Made by a program: the position numbers and the translations under genes
Notes under the pieces: model-generated
Database searches by the model: none
The model's input: the letters and a program-made list of their open reading frames with translations, nothing else
Told to the model about the DNA's origin: nothing
Assembly (NCBI GenBank): GCA_030065125.1
Contig: JASJDM010000001.1
Span: forward strand, 1-64,000
Length of the DNA: 64,000 bases
Reading direction: 5' to 3'
Source: Lysobacterales bacterium
Lineage (GTDB): Bacteria; Pseudomonadota; Gammaproteobacteria; Xanthomonadales; SZUA-38
Shown here: positions 36,689 to 44,153 of the stretch, in pieces
Layout of the letters: the number at the start of each line of letters is the position of its first letter
How positions within the stretch are numbered: the first letter of the stretch is position 1

Positions 36689-39628
36689 ATGGTGGGACGC
36701 GGAATTGCAGTTCTGCTGCTGGGGCTGGCATGTGAGATCGCCCCGCTTACGGCTATGGCCGGCGCCGTGGATTATGACATCGTGTACGTGCGGCAGGCGC
36801 GCTACGGGGACACAACCAATACCATCTGGCCGGAGGTATTCCACCCCGGGCGCCTGGATCCCGGTGCCGACCTGGTATTGCTCCATCCTAACGGATCGGA
36901 AGAAATCCTGGTGGACTGCACCGACTGCGGCGTCACCGACCCGATCATTTCTTTTGACGGACAGTACGTCTACTACAGCCTGTTTCCTGACCTCACCTCG
37001 CTGAATTCTCAGCGCGGCAATCTGCCGCTCCAGGGTGCGGACATTTTCAGAATGCACCTGGGAACCCGGCAGGTCGAGCAGCTGACCTTCGGCGAATTCA
37101 CCCCCAACACCGGGGCCGGCAACTGGGATGAGAGTAATCCGGTCAATCCAGCGGGAACCTACAACCGACTGGGTTACGGCATACTGAACCTGGGACCCAT
37201 GCCGCTGCCCGGGGAAAGGCTGGCCTTCACCAGCAACCGCAACGGCTACATTCCAACCCAAAGTTTCACCAACCCCACCATGCAGCTGTTTGTCATGGAT
37301 ATCGACGGCGGCAACGTGGAGCAGATTGCCCCGATGAATATCGGCAGTGCGCTGCACCCCACGATCCTGCGGGACGGTCGACTGATGTTTTCCAGCTACG
37401 AATCCCAGGGTCTGCGCGATCGCCGGGTCTGGGCGATCTGGTCCATCTACCCCGACGGCCGCAACTGGGCACCCGTGGTCAGCAGCCTGACGGCGCCGGA
37501 AGCCTTCCACTTCATGACCCAGACCAGCAACCAGGACATCATTGTTGACGCCTACTACAACCTCAACAACAACGGTTTCGGTGCGCTGTTCGGGCTGCCG
37601 GTCAGCCCGCCGCCAGGGACGCCGCCCTTCTATGGTGCGTTCCCATCGCAGAATCCACCCATCGATGAGACCCGCAGCTTCGGGCCCACCACGTTCCGAT
37701 TTCCGTTCACGCCCTGGGGCTATTACGCCGTCACCCCCATGACCCACAAAGAGGACAACGCGGCGCCCATTGGCAATGACGGCGTCACCCGGGTCGGCAA
37801 GTTCACCCACCCGTCCGCCGCACCCAACAACGACCTCCTGGTGGTGTGGACCCCGGGCCCGGCCAACGATCTCAACCGACCCACCACCGACCCGCGCTAC
37901 GACGCCGGGCTGTACGTGATCCCAAATACCACGCCGGTCTGGGATCCCAGCGAACTGGTGCTGATCAAGAACGATCCTGCCTACAACGAGGCCTGGCCCC
38001 GAGCCGTGGTGCCGTACAGCGCAGTCCACGGCGTCGATGAGCCCGATGATCTGCCGTGGCTGCCCAACGACGGCTCGGTTCATTCCCTGCTGCCTGCGGG
38101 AACGCCCTACGGGCTGGTTGGAACCAGCAGCTTCTACAAACGTGAGAGCTTCCCGGGCCGGGGCGACGGATCTTTTGATGGGCTGGATCCGTTCAACACC
38201 TCCCAGAACGGCGCCAGCAGCAACTGGTCCTACCAGGGCTCCGACGCAGGGCTGTACGACGATTCCGATATCTGGGCCGTACGGATCGTGGCCATGGAAG
38301 GGAATACATCACGGCTGTACGGACCCAACGCAACCGAACTGGACGGCGGTGATTTTCACAGCCACGCCAACGAGCGATTGCGCATCCTGGGCGAGATACC
38401 TCTGCGCAAGTCTGACGGGCGGGGGGGTGCCATCCTGGACGCGGAGGGTAATCCGGACACCAGTTTCCTGGCAAAGATACCCGCTGATACCCCCTTCACC
38501 TTCCAGACCATCGATCGAAACGGCATGGTGCTGAACATCGCCCAGACCTGGCACCAGGTCAGGCCCGGGGAGATGAGGGCCGACTGCGGCGGCTGTCACG
38601 CCCACAGCCAGATGCCACTGGCCTTTGCCGGAACCGAAGCCAGCAAAGGTGGATACAACGTGTACGATCTGTCCAAGGTAACACCTCTGGTGACCCAGGA
38701 TGGTGCTGGACAGCCGCAGCTGGTCGAACTGCCGGCTTCCATGCTCGACGTGGAGTTTTACGCTGATATCCGCCCGGTTCTTCAGGCCCACTGCGTCAGC
38801 TGCCACAACGGCAACCAGAACGCCGGCAACCTGAACCTGAATGACCTGAATCTGTACGGCAACCTGCCCGGTGACTACAAGCGACTGGCTGACGACTCCG
38901 AGGCCAACTGGGGATACCCCCCGGTGATCAACAACGGCATCTGGCGCCAGACCAACGCCAGCCGCTATGTCCGGATGTTCCAGAGCCGAAGAAGCCTGCT
39001 GATCTGGAAGATATTCGGCGCCCGGCTGGATGGATGGACCAACAGTGATCACCCCACGGAATCGGTGCCGGGCGACCAGGGCACCCTGCCCGGCGGTGCC
39101 AACCCCAACGATGCCGACCTGGACTTTGTGCCGAGTACAGACCACCCGGCCGGTGGCATGCCGGCGCTCACCATCGAGCAGAAGATGGCCTTTGCCCGGT
39201 GGATCGACCTGGGTGCCCCCATTGACGTGGCGGCCACCCGGGGCAACCCCGGCATGGGCTGGTTCGAGGACAATCTCCGGCCGACTCTGACGATCAGCGT
39301 ACCGCGACCCGACTACAATCCGGTGCCGCCCGCCAGAATCCGATTTGGCATGGTGGACGCCTACACCGGCCTGGACCTTTCCACCCTGTCGGTCCAGGCA
39401 TCGTTTACCGTCCAGGGGCGAGTGCCTCGATCTGAGCTGGCTGACCTGGCTTCACCGGTAGGAGACGGCATCTGGGAAATCAATTTTGGTGGCCCGCTGC
39501 CGCCAAACCTGTTCAACGCCCACGTGCTGGCCCAGGTCGCGGACAACCAGGGCAACATCAAGCGGGTGGACGTTCAGTTCTCAACCGCTGCAACAGGACT
39601 GGTTTTCGCCGACAGCTTCGAAGATTGA
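36689..39628 (+). CDS. Exported two-heme protein with TolB-like propeller (hydrazine synthase alpha-like)
   Basis: 979 residues with AGAGGAGG before the ATG and a signal peptide (1-26, ending MAGA). An N-terminal propeller-type region (VLLHPNGSEEIL, LAFTSNRNGYIP, QLFVMDIDGGNVEQI, ALHPTILRDGRLMFSSY) is followed by a long middle region and two c-type heme motifs: CGGCH (633-637) and CVSCH (702-706). The layout resembles the HzsA/'HZS alpha' group found outside anammox bacteria. The protein ends in GLVFADSFED. Heme attachment would occur in the periplasm. Function here is unknown; a hydrazine role is not implied. Confidence 0.82.
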   Translation: MVGRGIAVLLLGLACEIAPLTAMAGAVDYDIVYVRQARYGDTTNTIWPEVFHPGRLDPGADLVLLHPNGSEEILVDCTDCGVTDPIISFDGQYVYYSLFPDLTSLNSQRGNLPLQGADIFRMHLGTRQVEQLTFGEFTPNTGAGNWDESNPVNPAGTYNRLGYGILNLGPMPLPGERLAFTSNRNGYIPTQSFTNPTMQLFVMDIDGGNVEQIAPMNIGSALHPTILRDGRLMFSSYESQGLRDRRVWAIWSIYPDGRNWAPVVSSLTAPEAFHFMTQTSNQDIIVDAYYNLNNNGFGALFGLPVSPPPGTPPFYGAFPSQNPPIDETRSFGPTTFRFPFTPWGYYAVTPMTHKEDNAAPIGNDGVTRVGKFTHPSAAPNNDLLVVWTPGPANDLNRPTTDPRYDAGLYVIPNTTPVWDPSELVLIKNDPAYNEAWPRAVVPYSAVHGVDEPDDLPWLPNDGSVHSLLPAGTPYGLVGTSSFYKRESFPGRGDGSFDGLDPFNTSQNGASSNWSYQGSDAGLYDDSDIWAVRIVAMEGNTSRLYGPNATELDGGDFHSHANERLRILGEIPLRKSDGRGGAILDAEGNPDTSFLAKIPADTPFTFQTIDRNGMVLNIAQTWHQVRPGEMRADCGGCHAHSQMPLAFAGTEASKGGYNVYDLSKVTPLVTQDGAGQPQLVELPASMLDVEFYADIRPVLQAHCVSCHNGNQNAGNLNLNDLNLYGNLPGDYKRLADDSEANWGYPPVINNGIWRQTNASRYVRMFQSRRSLLIWKIFGARLDGWTNSDHPTESVPGDQGTLPGGANPNDADLDFVPSTDHPAGGMPALTIEQKMAFARWIDLGAPIDVAATRGNPGMGWFEDNLRPTLTISVPRPDYNPVPPARIRFGMVDAYTGLDLSTLSVQASFTVQGRVPRSELADLASPVGDGIWEINFGGPLPPNLFNAHVLAQVADNQGNIKRVDVQFSTAATGLVFADSFED

Positions 39629-39690: not shown

Positions 39691-40560
39691 TCACTCGATG
39701 GGCGACAGCAGACGCGGATCGGTCACCAGCTGGCGCACGCCGTGGGACTTGGTTTCCTTGAACGGGTTGTCCTGGGCCCAGCGGTGCAGGGAGCTGATAT
39801 CAACACGCTTGCACTGGGGCCGGACGCTCCAGGTCACGTTCAACGGTGAGCAGGTCTGCTGGTCGTAACTCGGACCGGTGGTAGAACCGCGGAAAACCAC
39901 GGGTTCGCCCGAATCGCCGGGCAGGTCCTTGGGCTGGTGGAAGCCGTTGGCATCCGCGCCACCGGAATAGGCGAAGTCCATGAAGTCGATTGCGGTGGGG
40001 TCGTTGACCACCAGGAAAGCCTGGGCTTCCACCCGCAGCAGCGGGTTGTCGCAGCCTTCGCTCAGGCAGGCGCCCAGCCCCTCGCCGGGGGAGACGTCAC
40101 AGGACGAATGCACCCAGTGCACCTCGATGGTGTCACCGGGCTTGACGCCTTGGTAGCGCACCTCACCCTCCCAGGGATCGGTCAGTTCCTGCCTGGACAG
40201 GTCGGAGCCGCCGTTGCACGCGTAGCCACCGTCGTCAGCGTCACTGACAAACACCGAAAAGCCAGGGCCCTTATGCTCGGCATTGGTATGGGTGTGGATA
40301 TTGCACAGGTTCAGCGAGGTGGACTCGGGTGCCATGGCAAAGGCAATGGGGTTTGTACCCTCTTTGCTGCTGATGTCCCGCGGGGTTTGTGGGCCGAAGT
40401 CCAGGCACACCTCCGGAGCAGCGGCAGCCATGGTCGCTTCGGACTCTGCCGGCGCTGCGGTCTCAGCTGGTGTTTTGTTGGCCGTCGTATTCTCCGGCTC
40501 ACTTGAACAAGCCGCCAGGAGCGTGGAAGACAGGATACAAAGCGCAACAGGCTTTCTCAT
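39691..40560 (-). CDS. Delta-class carbonic anhydrase-like lipoprotein
   Basis: 289 residues. Lipobox LLAAC (C18) puts it at a membrane facing the periplasm. The motif LCNIHTHTNAEHKG (H89, H91, E95, H96) matches the conserved His/Glu zinc site of delta-class enzymes, and further Cys pairs (for example CDVSPGEGLGAC, CSPL, QCKR) could form disulfides. Reversible CO2 hydration at the cell envelope is inferred. Convergent with the heme protein. Recognition is from the motif, not from a search. Confidence 0.75.
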   Translation of the reverse strand: MRKPVALCILSSTLLAACSSEPENTTANKTPAETAAPAESEATMAAAAPEVCLDFGPQTPRDISSKEGTNPIAFAMAPESTSLNLCNIHTHTNAEHKGPGFSVFVSDADDGGYACNGGSDLSRQELTDPWEGEVRYQGVKPGDTIEVHWVHSSCDVSPGEGLGACLSEGCDNPLLRVEAQAFLVVNDPTAIDFMDFAYSGGADANGFHQPKDLPGDSGEPVVFRGSTTGPSYDQQTCSPLNVTWSVRPQCKRVDISSLHRWAQDNPFKETKSHGVRQLVTDPRLLSPIE

Positions 40561-40699: not shown

Positions 40700-43600
40700 C
40701 TACATTTCCGGTGGATCTATGCGTTCAAAACCGTCGGAGAAGATGGTCAGACTGAATTCTACGGCGCCGAGGTCGCAGGCGCCGTCATTGCGGGGAATGC
40801 CCCGCTGGTCCCGCGCCGGGCATTCCCTGTTGTCGCCGGCATCGCGGACCATGCTGTCCCCGGGCAGGTTGTGGGTCGGCGTGGGTCCGCCATTGTCCTG
40901 CAGTGGGCCCAGATTGGGGAAGCCGAAGAACAGCGCGACACAGCTGCCGTCCTCCACCAGGCTGCTGTTGTTTGGGGTGATTGAGTTGGGGCTATTGCAA
41001 TCGCCACCGCTGTTACCGGCGACAATAGTGTTCACCAACCCAAGGTATGACCCGAAGGTACCAAGGTTTTCCAGGCCACCGCCATAGGCCGCAGTGTTGC
41101 CAAACACTGTACTGTTGAGTGCCAGAACATCACCGCCACCGGAATTGTAGACGCCGCCACCTCGACCCGATGCCGTATTTCCGCTCACCGTGCTGTTCAT
41201 CAGCGTGAGGGTTTCACTGTAAACCACATGATCAATCCCGCCGCCCTGAAGGGTCGCTGTGTTGCCGGCGATGGTGCTGTCGAAGATCGATAGTGTCGCG
41301 GTGCCGCCTTGATGGATGCCGCCGCCCCGGTCTGCCCGGCTGTTCGAAATGACGCTGGATTGGACCACCAGATTCTCGGCACTCCGCACGGCCCCGCCCT
41401 GGTCCGCGTTGCCATTGGTCAGGGTAAGCCCTTGCAGCATGACATCCAGCAGATCACCTGAACCCCCACGGTCGATGTCGAATATTCGACTGGCATCTGC
41501 ACCATCAATAGTGAGCTGCCTGGCGCCGGGTCCCTCAACGGTCACGGAGGAACTGATCAGCAGGTGGCTACCCTGCAGGGTAATGGTGTTTGGCAGCATA
41601 CCCGGGTCGAAGACGATTCGGTCGGGGCCAAATCCTGCCAGGCACTCACCCTGCCCGTCGAACACCCGGGAATCAGCGTTGACGTTGGCCAGCGCCTCGG
41701 GAAGGGAACAAAGGCCATCTTCTGTCTGCTCGATTGATGCGGTGGTAACCCGGACTGGCGTTATCAACTCCACGGCGCCGATATCGCAGCCGGCCAGTCC
41801 GTCTTCGTCGCCGTCACCCGGACGCACGGCGCCTCGCTGGTCGGTGGCAGTACAGATCGAATCGTCGCCGGTATCGATCACGGGGCTGCCCGGCAGTGGT
41901 GCGTGGGTCAAAGTTGGCCCGCCGTTGTGCTGCAGCGGTCCGAGCAACGGATCACCCGCGAGGGTGGAGTTGCAACTGCCGTCCTCCACCAGATTACCCG
42001 TGTTGACAAACACACTGGAGCCGGTGCCACTGGAGTAGAGGCACTCCAGGCCTTCTCCGGTGTTTCCCGCAATGACCACATTGATGAGACCGAATTCACC
42101 AGCATCCACGTACAAACTGCCACCACCGTAGATCGTGGAGTTGCCGATGATGGTTGAATTCCGGATCTGAACCGAACTGGAGCGAGCAAATATTCCCCCT
42201 GTTGAATAAACCCGATTGCCGGAGATCGTGCTGTCGCGCATCTCCAGGCTGCCTCCAATGAGACGTATTGCAGCGGAACCGTAAGAACTGGTGTTCCCGG
42301 AGACCGTGGAATCAATGACCGTCACCGCAGAATCACTGGCCAGAATGCCGCTTCCGGAGGATTCGGTTCGGTTCTGAGAGATCGTCGCGCGGACCAGCGT
42401 CAGGTCACCCGGCCCATCGCTGAATACTGCGCCCCCGCGGGAGGCCTCATTCGAGGTCAACGTTACGTCGCTCAACGTCAGGTTTTCTCGGTTAAGCACG
42501 GCGCCGCCGTCACCCGACACAAGACCGCTTTGAAGGGTCAGTCCCTGGATGGCCACGTCCACGCTCTCGCCGTTTCTGCCGTCGTCGACGAAAAACACCC
42601 GGGAACTGCCGTCACCAGAAAGCGCCAGCAAGTCGGCCCCCGGACCTTGAATCGTCACCGGGCTGGTGACGTCAATGTCGGCGTTGGCTCCCGTCAGGGT
42701 AATTGTCGACCCTTCAAGCACCGGGCTGAAAGTAATGACATCTTCGCCGAATCCCCGAGGACAATCTGGATGAACCGGGGAATCTGCGTTGGCATTCGCC
42801 ACCGCCTCGGGAAGACCACAATCACCGTCTGCAGCGATCAATGTGGTGGTGTCGACGACCAGGGGCGGCAGATACTCATAAGCGCCGGTGTCGCAGCGGG
42901 CCTCCCCGTCGCCGTCCCCGTCGACGGTACGCGGAAATCCACGCTGGTCGGTACCGCTGCACGGGGCAAAGACATCTGGATCCACAGCTCGACTGAAACC
43001 GTTGAAGAACGCGTGGGTTGGCGTGGGCCCGCCGTTGTCGGCCAGGTCCCGCAGACCTGGATCCCCTGTGATCTCCGCGCCACAGGATCCATCTTCCACC
43101 AGGTTGGCCACGTTGGTGGGCATGCTGCCCGAGTTGGAGCAGTCCGCCCCCTCGCTGTTGGCGACGATGGACGCCGTCATGCGCAGCGTTCCCGTGCTGC
43201 CCACACGGATGCCACCGGCCTGGACAAAGGCGGTGTTGTCAGACAGCGTCGAATTGCTCAGCCTCAGCGTGTCGTCGTCGGCGTGAATCGCGCCGCCGAA
43301 GCGAGCCTGGTTACCTGAGAAAGTGCTGGTAATGGCATTGGTATAACCCCTGGTGTAGACACCGCCTCCATAGTCGAAGGCCCTGTTGCCATAGAGGGTG
43401 CTTCGAGCGACAACCAGGCTGAGCCCGATGCTGTTGATCGCGCCGCCATTGCCGACGGTCGCGGTGTTGCCCGTGACGATGCTCTCGCTCAGCCGCAATC
43501 TGCCCTGGTTGAAAACGGCACCGCCAAAGTTTGCGCGCCCGGATTGCAGGGTCAGGTTATTGAGCGTGGCATCACCCGCTGCGCTGACCTCGAACAGTCT

Positions 43601-43981
43601 CGAGTTGCTGTTGCCCGAAATCGTGAGATCCCGGGCACCAGGACCCTGAATGGTCAGGCGGCTGGTGATGTCGATCTGCCCCGCCGCATCCGCCGCAGTC
43701 AGGGTAATGGTCTGACCCACCAGGGACGGGTCGAACTGGATAAGGTCAGATTCGCTGCCGGCCGAACACTCGCCCGGGACTGCCCCGCTGACGGTATCGC
43801 TGTTGGCTGAAACAATGGCCTCTCGCAGCGTACACAGCCCGTCGTCGGCGCTGATGTCAGAGGCCGAATTGACGGTAATGGAAGCCGCATGAGCGGAAGC
43901 CGCCAGGCCCTGGGCTATGGCCAGTGCCAGCATCCTTGGTCGGACGCGAAGCTTTCTTTTTCGCCTCACTTTGGGGTTCAT
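40700..43981 (-). CDS. Large secreted CSLREA/choice-of-anchor Q beta-helix protein with DGFE tail
   Basis: 1093 residues from ATG 43981 (the frame is open to 44071). Signal peptide about 1-33 after a basic start (KVRRKRKLRVRPR; cleavage near SAHA). Three successive modules start with a CTLREA/CGLPEA/CSLPEA header (CSLREA type), then ITLTG headers, pectin-lyase-like repeats full of 'N-S-T-I/V-S-G-N', a GNLVEDGSC-like segment, NGGPTxTH, a TDQRGxxR stretch and a CD(I/L)GAVE end. The tail is SLTIFSDGFERIDPPEM. Function probably surface or exported adhesion; uncertain. Confidence 0.85.
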   Translation of the reverse strand: MNPKVRRKRKLRVRPRMLALAIAQGLAASAHAASITVNSASDISADDGLCTLREAIVSANSDTVSGAVPGECSAGSESDLIQFDPSLVGQTITLTAADAAGQIDITSRLTIQGPGARDLTISGNSNSRLFEVSAAGDATLNNLTLQSGRANFGGAVFNQGRLRLSESIVTGNTATVGNGGAINSIGLSLVVARSTLYGNRAFDYGGGVYTRGYTNAITSTFSGNQARFGGAIHADDDTLRLSNSTLSDNTAFVQAGGIRVGSTGTLRMTASIVANSEGADCSNSGSMPTNVANLVEDGSCGAEITGDPGLRDLADNGGPTPTHAFFNGFSRAVDPDVFAPCSGTDQRGFPRTVDGDGDGEARCDTGAYEYLPPLVVDTTTLIAADGDCGLPEAVANANADSPVHPDCPRGFGEDVITFSPVLEGSTITLTGANADIDVTSPVTIQGPGADLLALSGDGSSRVFFVDDGRNGESVDVAIQGLTLQSGLVSGDGGAVLNRENLTLSDVTLTSNEASRGGAVFSDGPGDLTLVRATISQNRTESSGSGILASDSAVTVIDSTVSGNTSSYGSAAIRLIGGSLEMRDSTISGNRVYSTGGIFARSSSVQIRNSTIIGNSTIYGGGSLYVDAGEFGLINVVIAGNTGEGLECLYSSGTGSSVFVNTGNLVEDGSCNSTLAGDPLLGPLQHNGGPTLTHAPLPGSPVIDTGDDSICTATDQRGAVRPGDGDEDGLAGCDIGAVELITPVRVTTASIEQTEDGLCSLPEALANVNADSRVFDGQGECLAGFGPDRIVFDPGMLPNTITLQGSHLLISSSVTVEGPGARQLTIDGADASRIFDIDRGGSGDLLDVMLQGLTLTNGNADQGGAVRSAENLVVQSSVISNSRADRGGGIHQGGTATLSIFDSTIAGNTATLQGGGIDHVVYSETLTLMNSTVSGNTASGRGGGVYNSGGGDVLALNSTVFGNTAAYGGGLENLGTFGSYLGLVNTIVAGNSGGDCNSPNSITPNNSSLVEDGSCVALFFGFPNLGPLQDNGGPTPTHNLPGDSMVRDAGDNRECPARDQRGIPRNDGACDLGAVEFSLTIFSDGFERIDPPEM

Positions 43982-44050
43982 GGGCTGCCCGGTGTCCTTC
44001 GGCTTCCAGGCTACACAATGCGGTACACCGGGCCTGATGTCTTGACGGAG

Positions 44051-44069
44051 ATCTAACCGAAATCTAACC
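44051..44069 (-). promoter_or_regulatory. Direct repeat GGTTAGAT, 11-bp spacing
   Basis: On the minus strand GGTTAGAT-TTC-GGTTAGAT, two identical 8-mers one helical turn apart, 70-90 nt before the start of the CSLREA gene. Tandem half-sites at this period are typical of OmpR/PhoB-family regulators. No such regulator gene lies in the window. Confidence 0.4.
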
Positions 44070-44153
44070 AATCAAAAAACAACACCAAAGCCCAGCCAAA
44101 GTCGTCAAGCCGCTGCGGGACGTGAAATTGCCACCATGACGCTGCTGGATGCA

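Follow-up and report, generated by a model that had tools for sequence, protein, structure and literature searches.

The gene at 36689–39628 on the forward strand of the window (the whole 64,000-nucleotide stretch of DNA that was analysed) encodes a di-heme relative of the hydrazine synthase α subunit (HzsA) of anammox bacteria. It is not HzsA itself: it scores 53.4 bits against a cut-off of 800 on the hydrazine synthase α equivalog profile (NCBIfam NF052339), belongs to a separate clade, and is without Tyr591 and Cys303 of the HzsA heme I site. We regard the chances as about even that it works as a stand-alone, exported di-heme c-type oxidoreductase with the HZS-α fold, no β or γ partners, and a modified heme I/metal site. 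The computed basis of this reading consists of the fold, the two heme motifs, the missing Tyr591 and Cys303, and a set of invariant histidines (His223, His274, His622, His637, and His639). The two CxxCH motifs begin at Cys633 and Cys702 with a spacing of 69 residues, which confirms the open reading frame and motif pair described in an earlier account made from the letters of the DNA (hereafter the sequence-only reading). The features of the gene and its product are as follows, all on the forward strand.

36689–39628, forward: HzsA-like di-heme protein gene, open frame from ATG, 979 residues, with a Pfam PF18582 match
36689–36763, forward: apparent Sec signal peptide, MVGRGIAVLLLGLACEIAPLTAMAG, cleavage at about residue 23–25, judged by eye from the sequence
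36770–38020, forward: TolB-like six-bladed propeller, about residues 28–444 (approximate limits), from AlphaFold2 strands, Foldseek matches over ∼420 columns and blade motifs in the alignment
37355–37357, forward: His223, invariant in 72/72, in the propeller blade motif ALHPT, where HzsA has Asp (alignment)
37508–37510, forward: His274, invariant, seven residues downstream of HzsA Cys303 (Zn ligand) in the same propeller segment (alignments)
38447–38599, forward: core of the HZS_alpha middle domain, residues 587–637 (PF18582, E = 3.6e-13)
38552–38554, forward: His622 (TWHQ), invariant in the family, Ala in Kuenenia HzsA (alignment)
38585–38605, forward: heme I site CGGCHAH, residues 633–639, a CxxCH with the extra His639 (alignment, 72/72)
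38792–38806, forward: heme II site CVSCH, residues 702–706, in a class-I-like cytochrome c domain (weak PF13442; aligned to HzsA heme αII)
39143–39145, forward: His819, candidate distal ligand of heme II (alignment)
39263–39595, forward: C-terminal β-sandwich, about residues 859–969, Ig-like by pattern (AlphaFold2 strands 843–942 of the mature chain)
39599–39625, forward: C-terminal tail LVFADSFED, residues 971–979, corresponding to the IFxDGFE tails seen in relatives

The relation to HzsA is evident at the level of domain, profile, and fold. The HZS_alpha domain (PF18582) matches with 50.3 bits against a gathering cut-off of 26.6, the PD40 propeller repeats stay below threshold, and the cytochrome c match (PF13442) is weak. 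The cut-off of the equivalog profile NF052339 is exceeded by 20 Planctomycetota genomes, with top matches of 1518–1629 bits. By sequence, the sole clear relative in the PDB is Kuenenia HzsA (5c2v_A; family profile E = 1.7e-14). An AlphaFold2 model, calculated from an alignment of 72 rows comprising the window protein and its relatives in the genome_contigs collection, has a mean pLDDT of 89.6 and a pTM of 0.91, and its best Foldseek match in the PDB is again 5c2v_A (E = 1.1e-25, TM-score of 0.64 normalised to HzsA, 945 alignment columns), with TolB propellers ranking after HzsA. A profile comparison with 12 HzsA sequences from anammox genomes (hhalign) gives a probability of 99.4% and an E of 5.8e-21 over 631 columns, from the propeller to the cytochrome domain. 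The propeller, middle domain, and cytochrome c architecture of HzsA is thus present in the window protein according to the model, Foldseek, and hhalign. The TolB-like propeller named in the sequence-only reading is contained in the predicted fold, with matches to both HzsA and TolB, so that the absence of a propeller, one of the refuting outcomes named there, does not apply. The kinship with HzsA proposed there is borne out by sequence, profile, predicted fold, and the positions of both hemes. The heme-motif pattern is far above chance: across 72/72 relatives, drawn from about eight phyla, the two motifs line up and are retained.

In HzsA, the histidine of the heme I CxxCH motif (His587) binds zinc together with Cys303, Tyr591 binds the heme iron, and reduction of this Tyr-ligated heme αI was not achieved (PMC12758564, PMC12607021). 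The motif reads CxGCHxGSY in the 12 HzsA sequences, with an invariant Tyr, and CGGCH[A/S]H in the window family, where Cys633, Cys636, His637, and His639 are invariant in 72/72. At the position of Tyr591, 62 of the 72 sequences carry Gln (Gln641 in the window protein) and the others Lys, Leu, Glu, Ser, or Met. No Cys is aligned with HzsA position 303 in the window family, a position that is also variable among some HzsA (the 12-sequence set; PMC12758564). Tyr591 and Cys303 of HzsA are missing from the window protein, and His223, His274, His622, and His639 are found instead, the first three also invariant in 72/72. The deep relatives L021, L022, L024, and L170 retain His274 together with His639; neither residue occurs in HzsA, in the other planctomycete homologues L166, L168, L169, and L171, or in a short family of HZS_alpha proteins in the alignment. 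The surroundings of heme I form the best-conserved region of the chain, with CGGCHAH and TWHQVRPGE nearly invariant at an overall identity of 52–80%. From the alignments, His274 may be the equivalent of Cys303, the two falling in one segment seven residues apart, and together with His637 and/or His639 it could form a metal site in place of the Cys-Zn-His site of HzsA. These histidines might also be invariant for structural reasons.

At heme II, a heme-binding motif is found in 72/72 sequences, with a CxxxCH variant in three (CVDACH or CIASCH; L063, L068, and L127). The candidate distal ligand lies in the loop that precedes the WIDLG helix, where 51 of the 72 sequences have Met, 12, including the window protein, have His-Pro, and seven have Cys, such that Met818, His819, or Cys818 is available from one loop in 70/72 relatives. 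His819 and the distal His772 of HzsA fall in this same loop, which aligns poorly and holds Met or Cys in most relatives. Within the window clade, Met824 was also considered for heme II ligation and is unlikely, being replaced by Leu or Ile in three of the 12 His-Pro relatives. The candidate ligation fits a class-I cytochrome c with a retuned potential. Cysteine at the Met/His position (CPPP) occurs in L108, L109, L110, L111, L114, L134, and L135; these variants recall the His/Cys hemes that occur in TsdA and SoxA. The two α hemes of HzsA are too distant from one another for efficient electron transfer (PMC12607021), an argument against electron exchange between heme II and heme I within one monomer.

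The apparent Sec signal peptide suggests that the protein is exported; its letters and length differ among the aligned relatives and the mature part is conserved. Relatives carry varied C-terminal extensions of surface type (Ig-like, OmpL47, TafC-like, and a weak GlyGly-CTERM match), which together with the signal peptide point to the cell surface as a candidate location. These extensions differ among lineages and were rejected as common extra enzyme domains. The DGFE-type tail ascribed to the window protein holds in the form IFxDGFE for its relatives, and the protein itself ends in LVFADSFED. A long β-helix protein encoded nearby on the reverse strand (40700–44071; CSLREA/choice-of-anchor Q/Pmp-repeat) ends in IFSDGFERIDPPEM, a tail of the same type as those of the relatives and a possible common C-terminal sorting or anchoring signal. 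A scan for promoter and terminator gave nothing above chance.

The gene is an orphan, without partner or synteny. Co-occurring genes in relatives, a point raised in the sequence-only reading, were examined at 80 loci, and no conserved neighbour gene or synteny was found across them, nor any adjoining β-γ-like or paired cytochrome gene. CxxCH-bearing open reading frames within 10 kb of the gene are few at these loci and none is recurrent. Even a homologue from the same family (genome G001, 77% identical) shares none of its neighbours, an RND-type transporter among them, with the window. Genes for c-type heme maturation are present in the window's genome. The absence of an anammox setting, as earlier claimed, agrees with a protein that is not the equivalog, has no neighbouring hzsBC-like gene, and is without the Tyr and Zn ligands, this support reaching as far as the gene neighbourhood. 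A delta-class carbonic anhydrase lipoprotein (39691–40560, reverse strand; PF10563, E = 6.9e-63) lies convergent with the HzsA-like gene. A functional link between the two was rejected, as only eight of the 101 genomes of the order encode such an enzyme; in the carriers G037, G082, and G092 it is either on a different contig or over 200 kb from the HzsA-like gene.

Relatives are encoded on 287 stretches in genome_contigs, the best 80 of which are 52–80% identical to the window protein. Among these 80, the gammaproteobacterial sources are Marinicella, Dokdonella, Wenzhouxiangella, Lysobacter, Hahella, and Paraglaciecola, and the others Acidobacteriota, Deltaproteobacteria/Binatia, Planctomycetota, Verrucomicrobiota, Hydrogenedentota, Nitrospinota, and Chloroflexota; many are metagenome bins, for which single taxonomic assignments may be wrong. 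A protein search of the window's order returned matches at any strength in 21 of 101 genomes, two of the 21 via divergent forms. At a strict cut-off, with the query genomes included, 3 of 398 Pseudomonadota and 4 of 247 Acidobacteriota carried the family. Among 53 sequences placed in a tree, HzsA, the short family, and the long family to which the window protein belongs form separate groups, and phyla are interleaved within the long family, although long branches leave the deep order unsure. The patchy spread over about eight phyla and this interleaving suggest horizontal transfer of the long family. Identity of 52–80% across phyla over ∼950 residues, with more than 100 invariant columns in 72 sequences, implies strong purifying selection. 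Further, shorter PF18582 proteins occur in the window's order, several per genome in some cases; they make up a second HZS_alpha family that is common there (L026, L036, L047, and L055–L059).

For a protein of this kind, a redox function other than anammox chemistry is a reasonable inference, in keeping with the sequence-only reading. As it works without the partner subunits of hydrazine synthase and its heme site is remodelled, its chemistry very probably differs from that of the anammox enzyme. If it is an oxidoreductase, heme I, at the junction of the propeller and middle domain, would be the catalytic centre reached by the substrate. A second metal ion on His274, with His637 and/or His639, would substitute for the Zn site of HzsA, and the heme I iron, His-bound or open rather than Tyr-ligated, would be reducible and differ in reactivity. 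Heme II would relay electrons to or from an external partner, the direction being a matter of inference, and the substrate would be a small molecule or a surface-accessible one, other than the anammox pair NH2OH/NH3. By a more tentative extension, possible but doubtful, the CGGCHxH proteins would constitute a separate class of stand-alone heme enzymes, in which a c-type heme is coupled to a His274/His637/His639 metal site replacing Cys-Zn-His, passing between phyla as lone genes and carrying out an extracytoplasmic reaction that has yet to be described.

The resemblance of heme II to an ordinary class-I cytochrome c and the surface-type extensions of the relatives would also be expected of a pure electron-transfer or docking protein, with two low-spin relay hemes, a propeller and C-terminal domain binding a partner or surface polymer, and no catalysis. 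The conservation around heme I exceeds the usual need of an electron relay, and we consider this explanation rather unlikely. A decaying or non-functional cousin of HzsA, as the patchy distribution might suggest, is scarcely credible, being contradicted by the conservation described above.

Two further alternatives assign the protein a definite chemistry. Retention of HZS-type nitrogen chemistry on hydroxylamine, NO, or hydrazine would agree with the whole fold held in common with HzsA and with a pair of genes on another contig of the same genome (L144, G000:C37), where a NapC/NirT-like tetraheme protein (272–913) is followed by an octaheme HAO-like protein (832–2217); this pair looks like the reductive, nitrite-handling kind. 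Against this, Tyr591 and Cys303 are absent, no HzsBC-like or other multiheme partner adjoins the gene, and the carriers include Marinicella and Hahella, which are aerobic heterotrophs. An HAO-type protein is found in only one of the 21 carriers among the 101 genomes of the order, that of the window itself, and in none of the other 20. A link to HAO-type octaheme proteins was rejected on this ground, which also makes a hydroxylamine-linked role unlikely, and retained nitrogen chemistry is, in our estimate, very improbable. Action on exopolysaccharide as a propeller enzyme or binder, with the hemes aiding oxidation and a central metal in the propeller like that of oligogalacturonate lyase, is improbable as well. 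It would account for the invariant His223 and His274 in blade motifs, and a weak fold match to 3pe7 is found at rank 30, but weak matches of this kind are common for many propellers. Glycosyltransferase or exosortase genes surround the gene in Hahella, Paraglaciecola, and some Acidobacteria, a weak lead to function given that such neighbours occur at only ∼10 of the 80 loci. At L120, L123, and L128 (Hahella and Paraglaciecola), the gene lies within an exopolysaccharide cluster that also encodes polysaccharide deacetylase, exosortase (PF09721), and transferases.

To our knowledge, hydrazine synthase was long thought to be without relatives. HZS-α-like proteins outside anammox bacteria have been published, and the papers searched contain no description of the stand-alone CGGCHxH branch and its set of histidines. 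A large, well-conserved, single-gene relative of HzsA is carried by Marinicella, Dokdonella, Hahella, Acidobacteria, and others, cultured species included. Comparison of a purified relative with HzsA could show the role of the fold before anammox and the residues that make a heme a hydrazine-making site. The annotation label "HZS_alpha" does not imply anammox.

Compared with known systems, the window protein shares with HzsA (5c2v, NF052339) the six-bladed propeller, the HZS_alpha middle domain with the CxxCH of heme I, and the cytochrome c domain with heme II. It differs in lacking Tyr591 and Cys303, in the additional His274, His622, and His639, and in having no neighbouring HzsB or HzsC gene at the 80 loci; moreover, HzsA has no C-terminal β-sandwich and its chain stops soon after the WIDLG helix. 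TolB and other PD40 propellers have the propeller fold in common with the window protein but carry no heme. The short HZS_alpha proteins of the same order (∼735–790 residues) resemble it in PF18582 and in DxFE-type tails, whereas they have a single CxxCH (C[DG]GCHG) at the very C terminus, no heme II domain, and none of the His ligands of the long family, and they form a separate clade. HzsA homologues without the key residues have been described mostly as α plus β-γ gene pairs (PMC12758564); HZS-α-like proteins with a β-γ partner are also carried by Phycisphaerae metagenome-assembled genomes, and HZS-like proteins have been proposed to form a wider family acting on other substrates (PMC10732223). 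The HZS-α-like clades I–IV, which pair with a fused β-γ homologue (Hagglund et al. 2025, PMC12758564), resemble the window family in being HzsA relatives from outside anammox bacteria in which key residues have been lost. Clades I–III have a two-residue gap at HzsA 590–591 and a co-located β-γ gene, whereas the window family (CGGCHAHSQ) has neither and is set apart from them by the published description.
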